DNA from: Ananas comosus
Lineage: Eukaryota; Streptophyta; Magnoliopsida; Poales; Bromeliaceae
Direction: 5' to 3'
Assembly: GCF_001540865.1 (NCBI RefSeq)
Contig: NC_033622.1
Coordinates: forward strand, 13,832,797-13,896,796
Length of the DNA stretch: 64,000 nucleotides
Below are positions 3,129-53,889 of this stretch, piece after piece. Under the pieces are notes generated by a model that saw only the letters and a list, made by a program, of their open reading frames with translations, was not told where the DNA came from and searched no databases. Numbering within the stretch: the stretch's first letter is position 1; each line of letters opens with the position of its first letter. A program made the translations under genes and the position numbers.

Positions 3129-5999
3129 TTAGATCCTCAAAGTTAGTGAATGCTTCAAATTTCCCACGTGAAGAACGTGAGAACCCAAAGCCACCCTCCT
3201 ATTCCCCTCCTCATCCACCAAGCTCAAGTCCTTGCACACGTCCACTCTAAACGCAACGTCCCCCTCCCCTCGGGGCCCCAAGAACACCTTCTCGAACCCT
3301 AGCAGGTGCTTCTTCGGCGCGTTGTGGACCGCCGGCGGGGTCGAGAACAAGAACACGGTGTGGCCCCCGGGCATTCGGCCGGAGTTGCGGACGCGCAGTT
3401 GGACGTCGAAGGCCAGGTTCTCACACCGGCTTCCGGCCAGGTCGACCGACTTGCACCGGGACGAGTAGCACGAGTGGCCTTCTTCGAGGGGGATAGACAC
3501 CAATTTGGGGGCCTGGACGAGGTGGTGAGTGTAGTCGGTGTAGCTCAACCCGTCGCCGAAGGAGTAGACCGTGTCGCCCGTGTAGAACCGGTAGGTCCGG
3601 CCCGGGTAGCCGGTCGACGGGTCCGGACGCATGCGCATGTCGGTCATGGGGACGCTGTCGGCGAACGACTGAGGATACCACGTCACCGGCAGCCTTCCGC
3701 CTGAAGGAAACAAAAACCATTAATTTGATGAGAATACGCGATGACTGATCTTTGCAACGACTACGATTAATTTTGAACAAAATTTAGATAGAGTTTCATA
3801 GGCAAGAGGGAAGCAATATTATTAGAACTTACTAGGATTGTATTGTCCGAAAATGATGTCGGTGAGCGCCGCGCCGCCGGCCTCCCCGGGATATCCGGCC
3901 CAGAGGATTGCGGAGATCTGATCGCTGGATTTCGCGAAGGAAATGTCGAAGGGGCCGCCGGACATGATGACGAGGATCACGGGGCCCTTGGACGCCTTCG
4001 CGACCGCGGTGATCAGCTGGGTCTGCTGGCCGGGGAGGAGGAGGCTCACCCGGTCGAGGCTCTCCCTCTCGATCGACTGGTCGGCCCCGACGATTAGAAC
4101 CGTGACGTCGGCTTGCGCCGCTGCCTGCTTCGCTGGGTCCAACTGCAAGCTGTTGCCGGAGCACCCGACGTCGGCGCAGCCGGGCTGGTAAACCGTGGCG
4201 ACGTTGGCCGTTAGGCCCTGGAGAGGTGTGACGTAACCACACGGAGTGCCTATATATATAATATATAGTTTAACAATCGAATTAATTAGAAACCGAACCG
4301 CTACTATTATTATGCTTTAATGTAAGTGTTAAATGTTAATGACGTGTCCGCAGAACCTTCGTAGTTGCCGATCATGGTCTTGGTGACGTTGGCGTTGGGA
4401 CCGATTACGGCCATTGATTTGATGGAGTTGGGGGAGAGCGGGAGCGCGCCGTTGATGTTCTTCAGCAGCACGATGCCCTGGCGCGCGGCGTCGCGGGCCA
4501 GCTCCTGGTGGGCCGGGGTGCACACGTCCTTTGGGCCCAGCCCGCCGTAGGGGAGCTTGCGCGGATCACCGTCGAAGAAGCCCAGTCGCATCAGCACCAC
4601 GAAGTTGTTGGTGATCGCCTTGTCCACGTCAGCCTCCTTCAGCTTCCCGCCCTGCACCGCCGCCTGAGTGTGCTGGCCCAGGAAGCTTCCGCAGTTTAGG
4701 TCGAGCCCTGCGGTAACAGTTATGGGCCGTTACATCGGCCCGGCCCAGTAAACGTATTTGGCAAAATTGCATGGAGAACCCCCCTCAGTTGTTAGGATTT
4801 TCCAAATTACCATTTTGGGCCATATATGTGAGGATTGAATCAACACTGTTATCAAACGAATAAACTGTGCTGAAGCAAGTTTACCTGCCAAAATAGTTAT
4901 TGCGGCGGCATCTTCCGGCGTTTTTGTGTAATGTTGTTGATTGTAGAGCACATCGACCGAGTCGCAGTCGGAAACAATGTATCTGAAAAACAATGAGAAT
5001 AATATCACTCTCCACCAGTTTTGTGAGGGTTTGTTTGCTCGTACTGTACAATAACATGCTATTTGATGGTATATTAAAGCTTTGTCTGGTATTATTGTCG
5101 GCTCTTCTTTTTTTAAAAAAAATAAAATTTTTACATGAAATAGTATTCTATCCAAAGTGTTTGTTTCACAGGAAAAAAAAAACTTTTACTTTTTTTTAAA
5201 ACAAAATATCATCTATTACTTGGCGGGCGTGTAATGTAATGTAATCAAACAAAATAACAATAGAAAAGTATGCATGCCGGCATATTAAATTATATATAAT
5301 TGGTCTTCAAAAATAAAAATAAAAAAATGACACAATACCGAAAGAGGCCTAAAGTTGCTTCGTGGAGTGAAATTGAAGTTTAATTTACTTTGGAGTTTCT
5401 ATTTTTGAACCCTAATATCTCAATTGTTTTTATTGTTAACAAAAGTTTTTGACTTTTCTCTTGCCAAATACTCTACCGAACATGCTTATTTTGAAAGCAA
5501 AAATATATAAAAGCAAGACCAAATTAACATGCACAAACCATGGCAAACATGATCATGTTAATTACAAACCTACGTTTATATTTCCACTTTGCTAGTTACC
5601 ATAAATTGTGGAGGCCCAACCCAATAGCTGGAAACTCCCTACATACTTAAAATAAGATCAAATTAATTAAATGAGCTAAAAAAAATCGATGATTAATTCA
5701 CCACCAATGGGTTTGGCACTTGATGTAAAACAACTTGTCCCCAGTTATTATTGTTGGCTTTACAGCTACACTTGTACCCTTCTAACGCCATATCAAGTAT
5801 GTAGTTGTTGGTCGTTTTCACCAGAATTTATTGCCACAAAAACGTGGTTTTCAAGCAAACTCAATAGATTGAGACTTTGATTGATTGTGGCATGCACGGC
5901 AAAAATGCCTTATGAAAAGGTAAGCTTCGTCTCGTTTTAAATTACCTAACATTAGAAAAAGAGAGATGACAAATAGAATCCACAATTGATAAATACATA

Positions 6000-44146: not shown

Positions 44147-44757
44147 GTACATCTACAAACTACTTGGCGACAAAATATGATATTTAAGCGTTCTACGATA
44201 AGCAGTACTTCATAATTATCCGTCGTTTCTAAAAAATGCTCAGATTGCTCGCTAGCACTTTGATCCAATCTGCAGATAGACCTGAATGTTGAAAAAATTA
44301 TATTTACGTCGCATGCTTGTAAATTATTTCAATCAGTCATTCATCCAAAATAATCTCTTATGGTCGTTAGCATATGGTTTTTGGATCATGTGATGAAAAG
44401 AAATTGAATGATTTTCACAAAATACAGTCACTATTTGTTTTTTAGTATAGATAATGCTCGCTCCAATATCCCCGTATCGGATGAAAAAATAAAAATAAAA
44501 ATATAAATATAAAAACAAAAAATATTCTAGTAATTGGGCCGGTGGTTTAGATCCAACGAGTTAGTGGTTCTGGTGGGCTTGATTTTTTACATTTACCCCT
44601 ACTAACGAAAGCCCAACCCAACTCAACACATCTAAAACTATTTGGGCCGAATGGATGCGGGACGGGGAGAATTAGTCCGGCCCAACATTCGGGCCAACCT
44701 CTGGTACGCTTCAAAATCGTTCGTGACACCACAGCTCTCTACGCGTGGCAGTTCACC

Positions 44758-44777
44758 ACATTCATTGAACCTGGACA
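44758..44777 (+). promoter_or_regulatory. UPE-box-like sulfur-limitation element, miR395 cluster 1
   Basis: ACATTCATTGAACCTGGACA matches the UPE-box consensus AG(G/A)T(T/A)CATTGAA(T/C)CT(A/G)GAC(A/G), as I recall it, at 19 of 20 positions (C for G at position 2). UPE-boxes are double EIN3-like sites reported to bind SLIM1/EIL3 and drive sulfur-deficiency genes. It lies about 575 bases before the TATA box of miR395 cluster 1. Exactly the same 20 bases lie upstream of cluster 2. Confidence 0.75.
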
Positions 44778-45330
44778 GCTTCCCCAGACACCTTTCATGT
44801 AGAGAGAGAGTCCGAGAATCATCCTTTAATGGCCCAAAAGGCCAATTGTAGCTATCCTCGTATCTCAAGATACCATCTCCACCGATTTAATCCAACACAG
44901 GGGAGGAGCAGTTCGTTAATCCTTCACATCTAATTCTTCTTCTTCTTTTTATCTTTCTTTCTTTTTTCTTTTTTTTCTTTTTTTTTTTTTTTTGCATGGC
45001 TACGATTAGAACAACAGCACGGTAGAGATGAGATGATCAACTAAGGCTCGGTGCATGATAAGGAGGAATACGTACCCACAACGACTTGCGCAGGTTCTTT
45101 GGAATTGGGATGTGTTAATAAAAGCATCTATGAGAGGCTAATTTGACAGAGACAAAAAGGGCGCGATCGATCAGAGGCTCAAGAGCCTCGCCCACGTGGG
45201 ATTCCCTCCCCTTCATTCGGACCGTAAACCCGGCCAGGTGCATGCAATTGTTGCAATTGTCCATTGTCTCATGGTTGCATGTATCTGTACTTCATCGCAA
45301 TAAGGGAGGGTGCTCACTCTGAAACCCTAA

Positions 45331-45338
45331 TATAAATA
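45331..45338 (+). promoter_or_regulatory. TATA box of miR395 cluster 1
   Basis: TATAAATA about 125 bases before the first hairpin, after GTGCTCACTC. The following transcript start region (AATACAAGTT near 45364) is repeated at cluster 2. This fits one pol II promoter driving all three hairpins. Confidence 0.7.
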
Positions 45339-45455
45339 GGACCCATGTGGGAGGTGATCTCCAATACAAGTTGGTGTGCGAAGAGTAAGCTAAAGAGCAT
45401 GGAATTAATGGGCTCATGGATTAAGCTAGTCCCATTTTCTAGGGTTTTTGAGATA

Positions 45456-45575
45456 GTTGGTTGTTCCCTGGAGTTCCCTCAGACACTTCATTAAGTAGGG
45501 TTCTATAATATACACTGAAAATATAAGCCTTATCTCTACTGAAGTGTTTGGGGGAACTCTGGGTGGCACCCAACC
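45456..45575 (+). ncRNA. MIR395: miR395 precursor, cluster 1 hairpin 1
   Basis: Hairpin with GTTGG...CCAAC at the base. The 5' arm GAGTTCCCTCAGACACTTCA (45471-45490) pairs with the 3' arm, which carries the mature miR395 at 45539-45559. That sequence starts CT and continues GAAGTGTTTGGGGGAACTC, identical to the common miR395a form. miR395 targets ATP sulfurylase and a low-affinity sulfate transporter (SULTR2;1) mRNAs and is induced by sulfate starvation. Loop about 45 bases. Confidence 0.96.
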
Positions 45576-45637
45576 TTCGTATCGTTAGTGTTAGGGCTCA
45601 GTTTTGATTATGCATGCAAAAGAGATTATATATATGC

Positions 45638-45646
<9 letters not shown>

Positions 45647-45716
<70 letters not shown>
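45647..45716. repeat. (TG)n(GA)n compound microsatellite inside the miR395 cluster
   Basis: About 20 bases of TG repeats followed by about 48 bases of GA repeats, between hairpins 1 and 2 and therefore within the expected polycistronic precursor. Likely highly length-variable. Confidence 0.95.
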
Positions 45717-45721
<5 letters not shown>

Positions 45722-45731
45722 AATTAATTAA

Positions 45732-45830
45732 GTTGGTTGTTCCCTGGAGTTCCCTTCAGACACTTCATTAGGGCTCATAAGTGTTTGGGCTGTAGTGAAG
45801 TGTTTGGGGGAACTCTGGGTGTCACCCAAC
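45732..45830 (+). ncRNA. MIR395: miR395 precursor, cluster 1 hairpin 2
   Basis: GTTGGTTGTTCCCTGG at the 5' base pairs with the GTCACCCAAC end. Mature miR395 at 45795-45815 begins GT and continues GAAGTGTTTGGGGGAACTC, the form with 5' G that is common in rice. The loop is shorter than in hairpin 1, and its terminal part (GGGCTCATAAGTGTTTGGGC) resembles those of hairpins 5 and 6, so these are closest relatives. Confidence 0.96.
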
Positions 45831-45929
45831 AACTTGATCATGATGATGAGCTGGGCCACAAGGGCTCTGAATTGGTGCATGCATGCAGGGTTTAGTAATA
45901 ACTAGAAACTGCAGGAATATATGCAAGTA

Positions 45930-46050
45930 ATTGGTTGTTCCCTGGAGTTCCCTCATACACTTCATTAGGTAGGGCTTTTTTTTTTTACCTCCCAGGTGCA
46001 AAAGCAAATGCTACTGAAGTGTTTGGGGGAACTCCAGGGTGCTATCCAAT
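45930..46050 (+). ncRNA. MIR395: miR395 precursor, cluster 1 hairpin 3
   Basis: 5' arm TTGGTTGTTCCCTGGAGTTC then CCTCATACACTTCA; mature miR395 at 46014-46034 begins CT and continues GAAGTGTTTGGGGGAACTC. The loop contains a T11 run. It shares its long-loop form and 5' C with hairpin 1. It is the last hairpin of cluster 1. Confidence 0.95.
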
Positions 46051-48091
46051 ATTGGCTACAGAGGTGAAGCCCCTCTCAACGTGCGGCGACAGAGATCCTC
46101 CTCCAGCCGCTTTCTGAGCTCATCGTCGATCGCAGCAACAAAAGTTCCATTCCTGAAAGGTTTAGTTTGGATTTAACCATTGAATTATATTTAGATGGTT
46201 TTCTTAATTTGGTCCAAAATTAAACATATTTTTTTGCACAACAAAGCATTTATGTTCAATGCATTCTCTCCTAATTATGAAGTTGTCAGTACTAAAAGTT
46301 TGCAAAAATATTTTTTTTAAAAAAAAAAATTATTTGTATTGACGAATGATAGCTAAATATCAGTGTCTACATATATATGTGTGTGAATATATATACTCTC
46401 AACTACTTTTGATGTCGTAAACTTAGTAATAAGATAATTTAATTAGTTTCACTTATTATATAAAAATAGTTGATGTTATTGATATTTCATGTCAATTGTG
46501 CTATATTTTCCGTTGTATTAGCTTTTATACAAAACTTTATCCATATTAGGTTTTTGTTACCAAGTTCTATTATTGCAGTATTAGAAAAATTAACTTTACA
46601 TTGACACAAAAACTTCAGACTAAATATACATAAAATTGTGCATAAAAAACTACAAATCAGTTAACATTTCTATATATCTTGTTCAAGCGTTCAGCAAGTT
46701 CGGAAAACGAATTAGGGATTTGGCCTGGTCTAACCTGTTTTCAAACTAAATTTCGAGTAAAATTAATAAAGATATACATTAGCTCAAAATTTTAATTCAA
46801 AATTTATGTATTCATAATTACAATGTCCAAATTTTGGAGATATCTCATCTGTATTCTATACTAATGAGACTTAAACAATAAAAATAATTGAATATAGTTC
46901 AACTTGGCTTTTTAACAATCATCGACTTAGTTAATTTGCTCAAATTATTTGTCTTTCTTGATCTTGTGCACTGCTCGAAATTGATGAGCAATAGAATTTT
47001 TTTTTGAACCAGTCTTGTAATATATAACTAGACAATTTGAGACCTGTTAATTGTCACAAATTCAACACTTGTATGTCAAGGAAAATATTATGCTTACAAT
47101 TATTGATGTCAGAATAAAAGAGAGGCCATTTCTTTTGAAAATTTTCTTTGAATCTAAAAATTTATTATAAGTAATTTATAGGCCCCTGAAATATGCAACA
47201 CAAAAGATAATCTAATAGAGAACTGGATGACAGATGAAAATTTGAGTACGGCTGGGATACTATCGATAGCACCAAGCGTTTGGTGCTATCAAGTTTTCCG
47301 CCGTTAGATTTAACTTTTTGACTATTTTTATCCGTTAAATTATATTATTAAACCAATAACTCACTCAACCTTAGAAAGCTCACATCATCCTAATCGTGCA
47401 TTTTTTCACCCAAAGGCCGAAAACCTAATAACACCAATAACTTAGTGCTATATTGATAGAATTCCAGCTAAGGTCTGAAAATTTAATCCATTAGAATATA
47501 ATGCAAGGATTTAATTAGTGAATATTGAAGATGGGGAATTGAACCTAATTAATTAGAACTTACAGAATAAATTAAGAGGTCTATGATTCAAAAGATGGGT
47601 TTAAATAGGGTACGTATATCCCTGTTTACTCAAAGAAATATGATTTAAAAGATGGGTAGGATAAAAGATAAGTATTTAATTAGATTACATGGTAGAAATT
47701 TAATTCCACGATGTCATAATTAAAATGACGGGAGCTAATGATGGGTTCTCATATTATGTTATTCAAAAGATCGAACAAATAGAAAAACGAGCCCATGAAT
47801 ACATTTAACGAAATCATACTAATCCATGAACCAACAACTATCATATCGTCCGCATACAAGCACAAGAGCGCCGGTGATAATCATAAATATTCGTCCGTGT
47901 CTCGGTGGTGAATTCGGCAAGATTTGTTGTTCCGCGCACCGAATTCGCGATGTGCTTCTCCACGCCACGAAGTCGGCAACGAGAAACTGATCGTCAACGA
48001 CTTCATTAAACTCGGCATTTTCTAGCTGGAGAGGTAGATAGAGAGAGAGAGGGCTAGGGCTTTGAAAACCTGCGCTCCATGTCTCCATTTG
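46051..48091. other. Intergenic region between miR395 cluster 1 and a small gene
   Basis: AT-rich, with a MITE at 47244-47475. The right end (47900-48091) is less AT-rich and contains CT-rich leader sequence of the next gene. No other coding exon is supportable. Confidence 0.55.
47235..47484 (+). mobile_element. MITE copy 2 (232 bp) with 9-bp target duplication, Mutator-like
   Basis: The element at 47244-47475 starts GAGTACGGCTGGGATACTAT and ends with the near-complement (ATTGATAGAATTCCAGCTAA GGTC). TGAAAATTT flanks it at 47235-47243 and 47476-47484. A 9-bp duplication is typical of the Mutator superfamily. A subterminal small inverted repeat (CACCAAGCGTTTGGTG) is also visible. No coding capacity. 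Confidence 0.8.
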
Positions 48092-49658
48092 ATGTCTCCT
48101 CTCGCGTCTCCTCTCTTCTCCTCCTTGGTAACCCTAATTTACAATGCGACGCGATCCTTGAGACGACCTTCGATTTCAAGGCGCTACTCCACGTCCCATT
48201 CGAATCCAACCTGGAGAGATTCGCACAAATTTCTCCTCGAATCTCGCCTCTTCGATCTTCAGAAACGATCTTTTTCCGATGGTAAGGGGGGCAAAAAAAT
48301 CCCTGCTTGGTACGTTGTTCTTGTGAAATTTAGGGTTTTTGTTGTCGAAATCATCGTCGGATTTCTATAAGTTAGCAACAATTTCCTGTTTGATTTAACT
48401 GGAGCATTTCGCGATAGGAAGTAGATATGGGACATACGATGTCTAATGTAAGTAATTTATTCTTCAATTTTTCGATAAATATTTCGAATTGCAATTAGGA
48501 AATCACTTCAATTACTATAAATCTTAATGCTATTTCTAATTCTTGTTTGATATAGTTGTTCACGCAAATTTATATCTTCTAAATTTGCTTGGGTTTCTCG
48601 ACGTTGATTGATACTAACATGATCATGAAGTATCAGGTATTTGTTTGCGTTTTTTTAATAAAAAATTGGTTTTTATCAGTTTTTATGTACTACAATGTGC
48701 TGAATATGTTCTTATCCGTTTTGTCGAGACAAATAGTTCACAATTAAGTTGCTAAACTGGTGTGGGTATGCAGTTTATATTATTCACTTTTAATGCGAGA
48801 AAAAGTCGCATTCATAGTTTCTAACTAGCAGGTAGATCATACATATATGGGCATAAATAAAGTACGGTTTGTGTTTTATGCTTTTAACTCTTTCCTGTAT
48901 ATCACCGACTGTATCTAGCACAGCTGGCTAAAGATTTAATGGTTGGTACTTTAAGTCTCAAGTTTGATCTCTACTTGCTTCACATTTTTGTTGAGTTTTT
49001 TTCGGGAAAAAATTTTTGAATAAAGCGGTAGCTTACTACATTTTTTCTCAAAAAAAAGTGTTCTCTCCTGTATATCTCGCATGCAGCATTCTGGTTATTC
49101 TTCATATTTTTTTTTTTTTTTTTTTTAACTTGTGGTGCTTCAAGCATGATAAAATGTGATTGTGTTGTACTTCTTATCTAGGCAGGAAGCAACTTGAACG
49201 CAGCTCTACTCATGTTTTTATGGGTTTTTATGCAATATCATGGTTGGGCCTAATTGTTTCCAATCGCATTGTTGAAGGTCTGATTCACTGTATCACTAAT
49301 GCTATTCAGTAATTGGGCTTATACAGTTTGATCTAAACATCTTGTTTTCTAACAAATAGATGCTCTCTTCATTTTGGTCATGTAGAGTGTCCACTTTTGT
49401 TTTATGAAGACCTTATGTGATTCTCTTGCAATTGTTTTTTTTTCTCTTTTTTTGAGAGATATTCTCTTGTAATTGTTCATGTGTTTATGTATGAGAAAAG
49501 CATAATGTCTGAAGTTGAGTGCCAAAGCCTCATATTTATGCTGAAATTTTAATGTTATCATCTAATGTTTCATCCTGTGATTTCTATGTATTGCTTCCTC
49601 TGAAGCCTTGAATTTTTCTGTTTTCCATTTTTAAGAACAGAATGAGGATTCCGGGTGA
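48092..49658 (+). CDS. Probable small single-pass membrane protein, possibly mitochondrial, 3 exons, about 102 aa
   Basis: I do not recognise the family. Exons 48092-48281 (63 codons +1), 49182-49277 and 49636-49658 join through GT-AG introns with consistent phases. The N-terminus (MSPLASPLFSSLVTLIYNAT, then RSLRRPSISRRYSTS) is rich in Arg, Ser and hydroxyl residues and nearly free of acidic ones, like a mitochondrial presequence. RSFSDGRKQLERSSTH leads into one hydrophobic segment (VFMGFYAISWLGLIVSN, about residues 75-91) and a short acidic tail (VEEQNEDSG). An ATG in another frame at 48079 would compete for initiation; that frame (68 codons) ends just after the exon 1 donor. Using the CAG acceptor five bases later in exon 3 would stop the protein six residues earlier. 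Further spliced 3' UTR exons may lie at 49960-50520. Confidence 0.55.
48904..49076 (+). mobile_element. SINE in intron 1 of the small membrane-protein gene
   Basis: ACCGACTGTATCTAGCACAG, GGTTGGTACT, box B-like AAGTTTGATCTC, AATAAAGCGGTAGCTTACTA, TTTTTTCTC and poly-A. TCCTGTATATC occurs just before (about 48893-48903) and just after (49066-49076). More diverged than the 36.7- and 39.8-kb copies. Confidence 0.8.
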
Positions 49659-52020
49659 TTGAAGGAAGGTGTATCTCAGCTAAAAGACCTGGACAGTTCC
49701 ACTATCATCACAAACATTTATGAACATCGATTTAGAGTGTTGAGTAAATTTCCTGCCCATAACAGAAGCTTTTTCTGAATGTTTCTTTTATCTTCAGCAT
49801 TGGGATATAATTAATTTCAATGATGATACAAAGTGTAAACCTACGATGTCCTTAGCGACAACTAAATATGATTGCATTTTTTATTTTTTTTTTCTAGTTT
49901 AGCGGTCATCATGATGCACCATAACATGTAATTAAGAATTCCTGTTTTACATCCTGCAGTTGTTGTAAAACTCGTGGCAGTGCACTAGCTAGGATGCCGA
50001 GGAGGTAATGTGAAATCATTTTCCATTAGATATAAAACAGTTATGCAGATCTTGTCCGAGCATGCTTATGGAATCTTTGAACAAGCGCCAACTGAGAGAC
50101 CTTTTTACCTGGTGGATGTCAAGTGCTGATTACTTTATTAGTTTGATAATTTCATTAGACCTTGCAGTCTTTGCTCTCGATGTGACTTAAATGACCCTCA
50201 AACTGTAAGATAGTACTTCCACAACTATCTACTTCTGGTACGCTCAAGCATCTACCAAACAGCAAATTAGTAAGACCAAGTAAATTACTTCCTATTTTGC
50301 TGTCAGAATAGAGTATCTCAGTGTACCCATCTTCTTTTTGTTTAGTTGATATGCTTGTTTCTAACTTGTCAGGTGTAACAATGTCCTTTGGGCCAAGGGA
50401 GAATCCATTTCAACAGTAATTAATTTGCTGGCTTGTTCTTGATGACGTGGTTATCTATCAGTGGTGGACCTCGGCTGCGAACTGCAAGAAGGCGGTTTCG
50501 TACAGGCCGAGCAAGGGTAAGTGGTGGCAAGGCTGGTCAGTAGTCTCCGTTTCTCCTAGACTGCCGCATCCCGAGCATGCGAATTCCTTTCTCTACATAC
50601 AGGCACTCTCGAGAAACAATGTGGTTGTGGTGTTCTTTTGTTTATTTTTCGAGCTTTCGCTTTCTCTGGGCCTGCGCCCCAGGCTTCGGCTGCCTTTATT
50701 CTGTTTTTCGTGTCATGCGGTGTTGGCCTAATGGAGCCATATATGCATATTTGTATATATCTTTTCCATTTCCATTTTAAAAGATTATATATCTTCGCAG
50801 TTGTTGAATATATATATAGAAAGAGAGAGTTGTGCTGGAATACTATCAATAGTATTTGGAGTAATGCGGCACAACACAGGACAAATAGCAAGACACTAGA
50901 AATTATATTCGGCTCGGGTGGTGGAGAAGGCATTAGCGAAACAATGTTTATAGGTCTTATATGAGTTGTACACCTGTAGTATATTTCGAAAATGACTTTG
51001 TCACTTCTTTCGCTTGAATCTTCTTTTCGTTCATTTCAATTATCAAATATATATCATTGGTGAAGCACCTTGTCTACATATCCTATTCGTAGTTAAGCTT
51101 CTTTTATTTATTTATTTATCTATTTATTATAAACATTGAAAAGAACTTTTTCAGCGGACCTCATCTCTTCACCGTGTGTTCATGTAAAGCTAGACCCAAG
51201 CAATTAATGTTTCTACTTTGCACAAAAGCTCTACTCAAGCATTGTTTAATATTCTCTAGAATGTTATTAAAGTACAAATGTAAAAACGTATATGATTTAT
51301 CTATGCTATGGATCATTTGAATCGACTATCTAATTTTTTAAAATTTTAATTTTACTATTTAATCTCTTTTTTAATTTGTTTGATTTAAGTCAGTTAATAA
51401 TATTTTGTTATTGTTGACTTTAAATTTTAAAATAATTATTTATTTTAATAATTTTATAGTTATGAGAATTGTATAAAATATACTAATAAGTGAACTTGTA
51501 AGACAAATTACAGGTTCAAATTTTAAAGACAAAGCACCGTTGATTGATTGAAAGTAAATAAAACTGAAAGGTTGAATAGTAAACTCAAAATTTTTGAAAA
51601 TTAGATAACTAATTCAAAAATATTCATAGTTCAAATAATTTTCTTAATAATAGAAAAATAAAGCAAAACAGAATTAATGAACTAGACAAATCATTTGAAT
51701 CCCAAGTTGATTTGATTCCGAGAGCGCAAAAGCATAACCCAGCTGAGAGCTGCTTGTTATTAATTATATATATTTTCCTTTCTCAATCTCCAACACCGAT
51801 AACAAAGCGGGGAAAACAAAAAAAAAAAAAAAAAAAAAAAAAAAAGAAAAAAGAGCCCCAGTTCTCATAATAGTAAATGCAAAAGATCATTGTTGCAATT
51901 CATAACAACAATACAAGGTTACAAATACTAAACGTAAGCTCTAATTAATTACTTTGAATTAACCATGATCAGGTAGAGGTCTAGATCTCACATATATGAT
52001 ACTTCAAACTTTGGTTTCGC
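49659..52020. other. Intergenic region, possible 3' UTR exons at its left end
   Basis: 49960-50540 has a few splice-like junctions and less AT-rich patches that could be untranslated 3' exons of the preceding gene; no convincing coding exon was found. A solo MITE end (GTGCTGGAATACTATCAATAG) lies at about 50832-50852. 51000-52000 is AT-rich with a poly-A of more than 20 bases near 51820. Confidence 0.5.
50826..50852 (+). mobile_element. Solo end of the MITE family
   Basis: GAGTTGTGCTGGAATACTAT followed by CAATAG matches the terminal inverted repeat of the two full MITE copies. The rest of the element is absent, and unrelated sequence follows. Confidence 0.6.
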
Positions 52021-52047
52021 CCGGAACTCCACTTCCGGATTCAGTAC

Positions 52048-52079
<32 letters not shown>

Positions 52080-52135
52080 TCTTGAGCTGAGAGAGCCCAA
52101 CTGAAGTGAACGGGGGAACTCCGGAAAACATCTCC
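52015..52135 (+). ncRNA. Diverged miR395-like fold (probable relic)
   Basis: CTGAAGTGAACGGGGGAACT plus a C at 52101-52121 is miR395 with AAC in place of TTT at positions 9-11. A 5' arm (CCGGAACTCCACTTCCGGAT then TCAG at 52021-52044) can partly pair with it, and the loop is filled by a GTA trinucleotide repeat at 52048-52079. Pairing is much poorer than in the six good hairpins. The changed positions lie at the AGO cleavage site, so it would not cleave normal miR395 targets well. Confidence 0.5.
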
Positions 52136-52578
52136 CTCTTCTCGGAGGCTACAACTTCTTCTTAAGCTGCTGCTTCTCAATGGCTCTTCTTCTTGTGTCG
52201 GTGAAAATTTATACTGGGAATATTTTGTATCGTACGTGCTACACGGTTATATATATCTCTTGCTTTATGCTGCGGTTAGTAGGAATGTTAACGGATCCGA
52301 ATAATCCAATAACCCGAGCCAAATACGCTTCGGAGCGTGGGGTTTTAGTCCTGCAAATTCATCGATCCGTTAATCTTCTGTGAGTCTATTACTAGCTACT
52401 ATAATCGACAATTCCGGTTCTGTTAGATTTCCGCCACGATTTAACTATCCGAAACCCGTTTTCGGTCGGAGGCAAAGCGGATTCAGATAGATTTATGGTG
52501 ATCCAACACGAGGCCCATTTAACCCTCTCCACGGAAGGGGTGTGATCGCAAATTAAGATACTTTTGGGCTGGCTACAG

Positions 52579-52598
52579 ACATTCATTGAACCTGGACA
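52579..52598 (+). promoter_or_regulatory. UPE-box-like sulfur-limitation element, miR395 cluster 2
   Basis: ACATTCATTGAACCTGGACA, identical over all 20 bases to the element before cluster 1, although the sequence between it and the TATA box has diverged. It lies about 780 bases upstream of the cluster 2 TATA box. Confidence 0.75.
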
Positions 52599-53361
52599 CG
52601 TTCTTTAATTTAGCACTTTTTTTTTTGGTATGGGTGAGACGAGAATCAGTACACCTCAGTGGTCCACAAAGCCAACTAGTGCAGTATCCTTTTGTTGGCT
52701 AAGTCTCTTTCTCCAGTATCTTCAAAGATGCCATTTACACAATCCTTCTCCAAAAGAGCAAAATGAGCTTACTTTGACGCGCTTAATAGAGAACACAGTT
52801 TCTTCTCTCATCTTCCCTTTCCTCTTCTTCAAACCGCGCGTGAATGTCGCCTCTATTAAGTTAGACTGATCTGTTTCGACTCCTAACCTTCTGAATAGTG
52901 GTTGTGTGTTACTGCGAGCTTATGCTGTGTATTTTTCTTATCTCTTTAATGAACTGTACGGAGGATTATTCTGTCTTTTGGCCATGTCGACAACAACTGC
53001 AACATTATTATATGCCACGCATCTGTTGCGATATTCGCGGTGCGTAGACTAATCTTTCTTTGCGGTGAAAGGAATGTGCGTCGCTACAATTTGCGCAACA
53101 GCATGAGAACTATCTTGGTGATAGGGAATTCGATAGCACTAGCTAGTTGCCCCTAGGTTCTCTCATGAGAGATAAAAAGGACGTGATAAGAAGATCATAC
53201 TATTCCTACTCCCACATCGAAGATATATACATATATTCGGATTCCCTCTCCTCCACTTGGGCCGCGAATGCGGCTCGGTACATTAATTGTTTCTTCTCCT
53301 CATGTTGCATTGCATGTTACTTCTTAGCACATTGGAGAAGGAGTTAGTGCTCACTCCTAGC

Positions 53362-53369
53362 TATAAATA
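53362..53369 (+). promoter_or_regulatory. TATA box of miR395 cluster 2
   Basis: TATAAATA after GTGCTCACTCCTAGC, followed by GAGCTTCAATACAAGTTAG, which parallels the cluster 1 promoter (GTGCTCACTC...TATAAATA...CCAATACAAGTTGG). Confidence 0.7.
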
Positions 53370-53409
53370 AGAGTCATAGGAGTTGAGCTTCAATACAAGT
53401 TAGAACATT

Positions 53410-53544
53410 GGATCGATGTCCCCTGGAGTTCCCTCAGACACTTCATTACATAGGGCCTTGTTACCCTAAAGCAGTGGATAAGCCTTTATATATATGTATA
53501 TACTTCTATTGAAGCGTCTAGGGGAACTCTTGGGTGTAACCCAA
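53410..53544 (+). ncRNA. MIR395: miR395 precursor, cluster 2 hairpin 1, diverged mature sequence
   Basis: The 5' arm GAGTTCCCTCAGACACTTCA (53426-53445) is identical to that of cluster 1 hairpin 1. The 3' arm at 53509-53529 reads TTGAAGCGTCTAGGGGAACT plus C: four substitutions from the common miR395 (positions 1, 7, 10, 12). Pairing is kept, because GTCT now pairs fully with AGAC of the 5' arm. This is either a functional variant with altered target choice or a copy drifting under stem constraint only. Confidence 0.85.
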
Positions 53545-53611
53545 CATATGAATAGGGACTAATAAAGTGGCACATTTTAAGGTATGGCTTATTAAAGGAG
53601 GATGAATACAA

Positions 53612-53715
53612 GTTGGTTTTCCCTTGGAGTTCCCTTCAAGCACTTCACTAGGGCTCATGAGAACAAGTACTGGGCTATAGTGAAGTGTTTGGGGGAACTC
53701 TACGTGTTGACCAGC
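53612..53715 (+). ncRNA. MIR395: miR395 precursor, cluster 2 hairpin 2
   Basis: GTTGGTTTTCCCTTGGAGTT 5' arm; mature miR395 at 53680-53700 begins G T and continues GAAGTGTTTGGGGGAACTC. The short loop with GGGCTCATGAGAACAAGTAC is of the hairpin 2 type seen in cluster 1. The base of the stem (TGTTGACCAGC) is a little degraded. Confidence 0.94.
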
Positions 53716-53789
53716 ATGCTAACAGGATTAAGTGGGGTCACTATATATATATATACGTATCCAGGTGTAGCTTGCTCAAGGAGGAATAA

Positions 53790-53889
53790 GTTGGTTGTTC
53801 CCTGGAGTTCCCTTCAGGCACTTCATTAGGGCCCATTAGTGATTTGGGCTGTAGTGAAGTGTTTGGGGGAACTCTTGGTGTCACCCAAC
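53790..53889 (+). ncRNA. MIR395: miR395 precursor, cluster 2 hairpin 3
   Basis: GTTGGTTGTTCCCTGGAGTT 5' arm and GTGTCACCCAAC at the 3' base; mature miR395 at 53854-53874 begins GT and continues GAAGTGTTTGGGGGAACTC. Nearly identical to cluster 1 hairpin 2 across arms and lower stem, so it is probably a recent copy of it. Confidence 0.96.

Follow-up and report, generated by a model that had tools for sequence, protein, structure and literature searches.

A UPE-box-like element upstream of both pineapple miR395 clusters points to direct control by an EIL3/SLIM1-type regulator

How sulfur starvation reaches the microRNA miR395 is the question raised by a 64-kb stretch of the pineapple (Ananas comosus) genome, hereafter the window, which carries two miR395 clusters. 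The UPE-box is bound by those EIN3-like factors that act in sulfur starvation (EIL3/SLIM1, and EIL2 in tobacco). A sequence-only reading of the window had noticed a UPE-box-like element of 20 nucleotides (nt) upstream of both clusters and had proposed that the sulfur-starvation regulator may directly switch on miR395, an idea that our analysis supports at the sequence level. We consider it highly probable that this 20-mer is a functional UPE-box, a distal activator of both MIR395 units that wires them into the EIL3/SLIM1 regulon, because the element is the published UPE-box less one base in adjoining DNA without conservation, because LSU, LSU-like, DUF506 and SULTR1;2-like genes carry it too, and because pineapple has an EIL3-like gene. 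In Arabidopsis miR395 is induced by sulfur limitation (PMC4206189). The same source agrees with the dependence of this induction on SLIM1 stated in the sequence-only reading, which it words as 'directly or indirectly'.

Both copies of the element lie on the + strand at exactly the positions first reported for them, 44758 and 52579, and the several hundred bases said to separate them from a TATA box come to 573 bp in cluster 1 and 783 bp in cluster 2.

44758 to 44777, + strand: UPE-box-like element ACATTCATTGAACCTGGACA of miR395 cluster 1, 19 of 20 positions against the UPE consensus
52579 to 52598, + strand: UPE-box-like element ACATTCATTGAACCTGGACA of miR395 cluster 2, identical letter for letter to the cluster 1 copy
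45331 to 45338, + strand: TATA box TATAAATAG, cluster 1
53362 to 53369, + strand: TATA box TATAAATA, cluster 2

These are the only two exact copies of ACATTCATTGAACCTGGACA in the 64-kb window, where a search allowing up to three mismatches found no third site; shuffled windows gave a mean of 0.01 matches, and two matches in 0 of 100 shuffles. Downstream of the elements lie the hairpins themselves, scored here against the Rfam MIR395 cut-off of 56 bits.

45461 to 45569, + strand: MIR395 hairpin 1 of cluster 1, 70.5 bits
45737 to 45825, + strand: MIR395 hairpin 2 of cluster 1, 74.5 bits
45935 to 46044, + strand: MIR395 hairpin 3 of cluster 1, 63.9 bits
53416 to 53539, + strand: apparently decaying MIR395 hairpin of cluster 2, 50.4 bits (below cut-off), fold z -3.1
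53617 to 53710, + strand: MIR395 hairpin 2 of cluster 2, 67.6 bits
53795 to 53884, + strand: MIR395 hairpin 3 of cluster 2, 74.5 bits

The sequence-only reading had counted three hairpins in each cluster. This holds for cluster 1, where all three pass the cut-off, whereas in cluster 2 two pass and the third falls below it. All five hairpins above the cut-off carry miR395 in the 3' arm and fold with z between -6.4 and -8.4. The sub-cut-off hairpin (53.3 bits on the other strand) has, on our reading, four substitutions in its mature arm and a star arm like that of its sister hairpins; its low score, the mature-arm changes and the weaker fold make it look as if it were decaying. The two clusters account for all five MIR395 matches above the Rfam cut-off in the genome, among the best 46 of 55,218 candidates that were scored; since the assembly is presumably smaller than the true pineapple genome, this does not prove that further clusters are absent. 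Two other candidates were rejected: a weak match outside the window (L007, 39 bits) looked on reading like an AT-rich inverted repeat, and a miR395-like fragment upstream of cluster 2 (52098-52139), possibly a miR395 relic, does not fold into a hairpin (z +1.0).

How closely the element resembles a UPE-box depends little on which published form is used. The first claim was of a match at 19 of 20 positions, and the consensus AG[GA]T[TA]CATTGAA[TC]CT[AG]GAC[AG] (PMC9229004) bears this out at both sites, the single miss being C for G at position 2. Against AGATACATTGAACCTGGACA, a UPE-box described as bound by the N-terminal part of SLIM1 (PMC9573389), the match is 18 of 20, and the final 15 letters are identical. 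Each arm of the element also resembles tebs, the TEIL/EIN3 site AYGWAYCT, but the element holds no exact tebs, and its two arms and tail are conserved as a single unit. SURE (GAGAC core) is likewise a sulfur-starvation cis-element, but its sequence is unrelated; two GAGAC cores lie upstream of each cluster, which by our estimate is about the chance rate for a 5-mer. Wawrzynska (2010) reportedly described the UPE-box in tobacco UP9C and in Arabidopsis LSU1-3, APR1 and APR3. The pineapple element is like those boxes in its 20-nt length, its fit to 19 of the 20 consensus positions, its inverted arms that resemble EIL half-sites and its GGACA tail, and it too precedes a gene family elsewhere known to be induced by sulfur starvation; it differs in the C at position 2 and in its place at MIR395, a locus absent from the UPE-box genes that the literature consulted names.

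We searched the pineapple assembly (382 Mb, 3128 contigs) with RTWCATTGAAYCTRGACR, the UPE consensus minus its first two letters, and found 14 exact matches, where base composition predicts about 0.6 if the GC content is taken as 38%; the reversed pattern gave 0. Of these 14, nine precede genes of sulfur-response families: two at miR395, two at LSU, one at an LSU-like open reading frame (ORF), three at two DUF506/PDDEXK_6 genes and one at a SULTR1;2-like gene. With the full consensus and at most one mismatch, the assembly holds 70 matches and the reversed control 2.

The LSU genes, on contigs C24 and C789, both carry a perfect UPE-box 11 nt 5' of the TATA box, and since their promoters are near-identical (mean column identity 97%) we count them as one case; their box has G at position 2 and is otherwise identical to the miR395 element (19 of 20). 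The LSU-like ORF at C9, which the LSU family search missed and the UPE pattern found, has a perfect UPE-box directly 5' of its own TATA box. Among the strongest responders to sulfur deprivation listed for Arabidopsis is a DUF506 gene, AT1G12030 (PMC8566312). The pineapple PDDEXK_6 gene at C6 (L033 4916-5372) has, within 460 bp of its promoter, one UPE-box and four sites with three mismatches, and its counterpart at C17 has two upstream copies identical letter for letter to the miR395 20-mer. PDDEXK_6 (PF04720) is the former DUF506. Counting only exact copies, with C at position 2, the assembly has four of the 20-mer, one before each miR395 cluster and a pair upstream of this one DUF506 gene; the pattern suggests that C at position 2 is an accepted UPE-box variant. 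At C15 a gene whose spliced protein matches 'sulfate transporter 1.2-like [Ananas comosus]' has one UPE-box upstream. Two APR-like genes (PF01507) have weaker, mutually similar boxes with 2-3 mismatches, beginning 143 and 180 bp upstream of the presumed start codon.

Which factor would read these sites is a question about the EIN3 family, of which we found four genes in the assembly. One, at C20:10609236-10609979, is EIL3-like, scoring 228 bits against AtEIL3 (1wij) and 200 bits against AtEIN3 (4zds). The other three are closer to AtEIN3, and this is one reason to ask whether the element could instead be an EIN3/EIL1-type (ethylene) site, in which case miR395 would answer to ethylene and not to sulfur status. 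In the core of the element, sequences like EIL half-sites do stand as an inverted repeat, and for EIN3 to bind it matters how many sites there are, which way they point and how far apart they lie (PMC4564277). EIN3 is also reported to heterodimerise with SLIM1 and to keep it from binding the UPE-box (PMC10243980). We nevertheless judge an ethylene site unlikely, as the identical block takes in GGACA at the 3' end, a tail that belongs to the UPE-box but not to tebs, and as sulfur-response families hold nine of the 14 exact genome matches.

Duplicated clusters might also carry the same 20-mer for no other reason than their common descent, by neutral persistence or by gene conversion. The clusters are paralogous and have their proximal promoter in common, the part in which the two upstream regions are clearly homologous:

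45199 to 45243, + strand: proximal block common to 53239-53283 (45 nt, 73%), family D14
53239 to 53283, + strand: proximal block common to 45199-45243 (45 nt, 73%), family D14
45310 to 45319, + strand: common 10-mer GTGCTCACTC just 5' of the TATA box, cluster 1
53347 to 53356, + strand: common 10-mer GTGCTCACTC just 5' of the TATA box, cluster 2
45362 to 45372, + strand: common 11-mer CAATACAAGTT, cluster 1, 31 nt past the TATA start
53391 to 53401, + strand: common 11-mer CAATACAAGTT, cluster 2, 29 nt past the TATA start

The proximal promoters are 62.8% identical, against 45.8 +/- 4.4% when shuffled, and it is this homology that lifts the whole upstream regions (44600-45460 and 52420-53420) to 53% identity against 42% in 60 dinucleotide shuffles. 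Beside the element the picture differs. The flank before it (44600-44757 and 52420-52578) is 45.4% identical against 44.6 +/- 4.0%, and the stretch after it (44778-45190 and 52599-53230) 43.4% against 44.7 +/- 2.9%, each in 40 shuffles, so that the 20-mer is the only conserved feature of the distal promoter. The earlier description of the upstream regions as much diverged was therefore an understatement for the DNA on either side of the element. Identity between the two sites spans the 20 nt of the UPE-box and no more, the second-longest block common to both upstream regions is 11 nt, and the longest identical run in 60 dinucleotide shuffles is 10; permuting the 778 ungapped columns, the 20-mer's own included, gave a run of at least 20 in 23 of 20,000 trials. 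Flanks at shuffle level, an identity that stops at the UPE-box limits and two further exact copies at an unrelated gene together make a neutral leftover or gene conversion very improbable. As to the layout of the proximal promoter, the 45-nt blocks begin 132 bp (cluster 1) and 123 bp (cluster 2) before the TATA boxes, and the CAATACAAGTT 11-mer, from its position some 30 nt past the TATA start, is likely to be the transcription start of both clusters.

We think it similarly improbable that the element works for a different transcript next to each cluster. Its core is palindromic and not strictly directional, and the transcripts of the window are annotated in part, so such an arrangement is conceivable; yet miR395 is the only recognised feature downstream of both copies, and a second gene common to both loci was not seen, though no systematic search for one was made. 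Delivery of the element by a transposon, with no role at miR395, is extremely improbable, for although repeat families with near-UPE sequences exist in the pineapple genome, their letters depart from those of the miR395 element in several places, nothing is common to the flanks of the two sites, and a 75-nt query around site 1 (bases 6-75 aligned) matches only itself in the assembly, in a search that skips very common words.

The repeat families themselves deserve a brief description. In the repeat L054 (C19:4438400-4440600), two near-identical copies lie about 1.56 kb apart, and both have the near-UPE sequence AGATACAATGAACCTAGACA, of which the assembly holds 28 copies. L034, L039 and L040 form a repeat family with several near-UPE motifs of the CATTGAAYGTGGACAAC type in tandem. 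Repeats such as L054 could spread EIL-type sites.

Allowing one mismatch, the miR395 complement has nine matches in the assembly, five of them the hairpins' own mature arms and four elsewhere, and the reversed control gave three. That number equals the count of one-mismatch matches, so the weight rests on the identity of the target genes. Outside the clusters only one match is perfect, at 19 of 19 positions; a second SULTR gene, at C15:1358555, has its presumed ATG 8 nt downstream of it, and from this target site we take the gene to be of SULTR2 type. This gene and the SULTR1;2-like gene stand head to head at C15:1351500-1358600 (L037/L055), with the UPE-box between them. Two ATP-sulfurylase genes have miR395 sites with one mismatch to the search pattern and two to the miR395 complement, and on our reading both mismatches in each would form G:U pairs. 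Their identity is given by Pfam PUA_2, above cut-off, and by the NCBIfam sulfate adenylyltransferase model at about 93 bits, below a cut-off that was set for whole proteins and is applied here to partial pieces. The fourth match, at C16, lies in no recognised ORF.

Several observations weigh against a functional UPE-box at miR395. Five of the 14 exact genome matches are not at sulfur genes: one is at a copia gene (C4), three belong to one repeat family with the same surrounding letters (C7, C442 and C528), and one is unassigned (C10). Of the 70 matches with at most one mismatch, 48 fall by their letters into two repeat families, of which one member, L054, was inspected; the other 22 comprise the nine at sulfur loci and 13 elsewhere, and at the eight of those 13 that were inspected no sulfur gene was found. 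The two miR395 clusters are paralogs and not independent cases, so the chance of about 3e-8 for a match within 1 kb upstream of both, calculated with the 68 non-miR395 matches evenly spread, overstates independence. With C for G at position 2, the left tebs half-site is off by one base, and there is no exact tebs octamer AYGWAYCT within the element, each arm being one mismatch off; the right arm of the UPE consensus is, by our comparison, itself one base off tebs. Near the clusters an exact tebs was seen at one place, in the proximal promoter of cluster 1, and none was seen around cluster 2.

45279 to 45286, + strand: exact tebs octamer ATGTATCT, proximal promoter, cluster 1 only

Distance is a further concern, as the miR395 element lies 573-783 bp from the TATA box compared with 11 nt for the pineapple LSU box, the second C17 copy is 2.6 kb farther upstream than the first, and the C15 box is about 2 kb before the ATG of the SULTR1;2-like gene. 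The LSU-like ORF at C9 scores 23 bits against Pfam LSU, under the cut-off of 30. A review holds that the UPE-box cannot be assigned as the prime binding sequence of SLIM1, because APR genes that are independent of SLIM1 also carry it (PMC4212615). Lastly, the comparison covers one species, pineapple, and draws on DNA sequence alone. On the matter of distance, an EIL3 motif at -588 to -539 of the rice sulfite-reductase promoter, whose deletion lowered expression (PMC12314071), suggests that an EIL site so far upstream can act in a monocot.

What lies beside the eight inspected matches is as follows.

C4: copia
C16: copia
C10:10236969: five ORFs, no Pfam match
C14:3254362: adjoins a cytokinin dehydrogenase exon
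C18: GILT ORF pointing toward the site
C22: three ORFs, no Pfam match
C1:2125494: two ORFs, no Pfam match
C19:9351404: match with at most one mismatch

Elsewhere in the window, an open frame of 640 codons at 31384-33303 matches WRKY19-type zinc fingers nine times, and at 3129-5185 on the - strand two of the three open frames tested match a glycosyl hydrolase family 3 C-terminal domain and a fibronectin III-like domain.

A functional UPE-box at miR395 would fit the following sequence of events. When sulfate is low, the EIL3-like protein of pineapple would bind the element and activate both polycistronic miR395 transcripts along with LSU, DUF506 and SULTR1;2, the activation, its direction and its timing all being predicted here, and miR395 would then cut ATP-sulfurylase and SULTR2-type mRNAs. 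We lean slightly towards a bolder version of this model, in which MIR395 is a primary direct target of EIL3/SLIM1 and its UPE-box predates the duplication of the cluster, having been kept letter for letter while the distal promoter around it was replaced. The same word would then wire SULTR1;2, LSU, DUF506 and miR395 as one regulon, in which EIL3 opens uptake and, via miR395, closes ATP-sulfurylase and the adjoining divergent SULTR2-type transporter.

Related observations have been made in other plants: in rice, miR395 genes are clustered with likely common promoters (PMC2812943), and in tomato, SLIM1/EIN3 motifs are enriched in the promoters of sulfate-responsive microRNAs as a group (PMC12428225). 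For Arabidopsis SLIM1, a DAP-seq dataset is reported to exist (PMC10988502). We found no report of a UPE-box in a MIR395 promoter in the literature searched, which covers few subscription papers and was available in part, so this is not proof that none has been published. A defined 20-nt site at both MIR395 clusters makes a direct SLIM1 route testable via one mutated promoter, and the genome-wide matches offer a small candidate sulfur regulon of a monocot.

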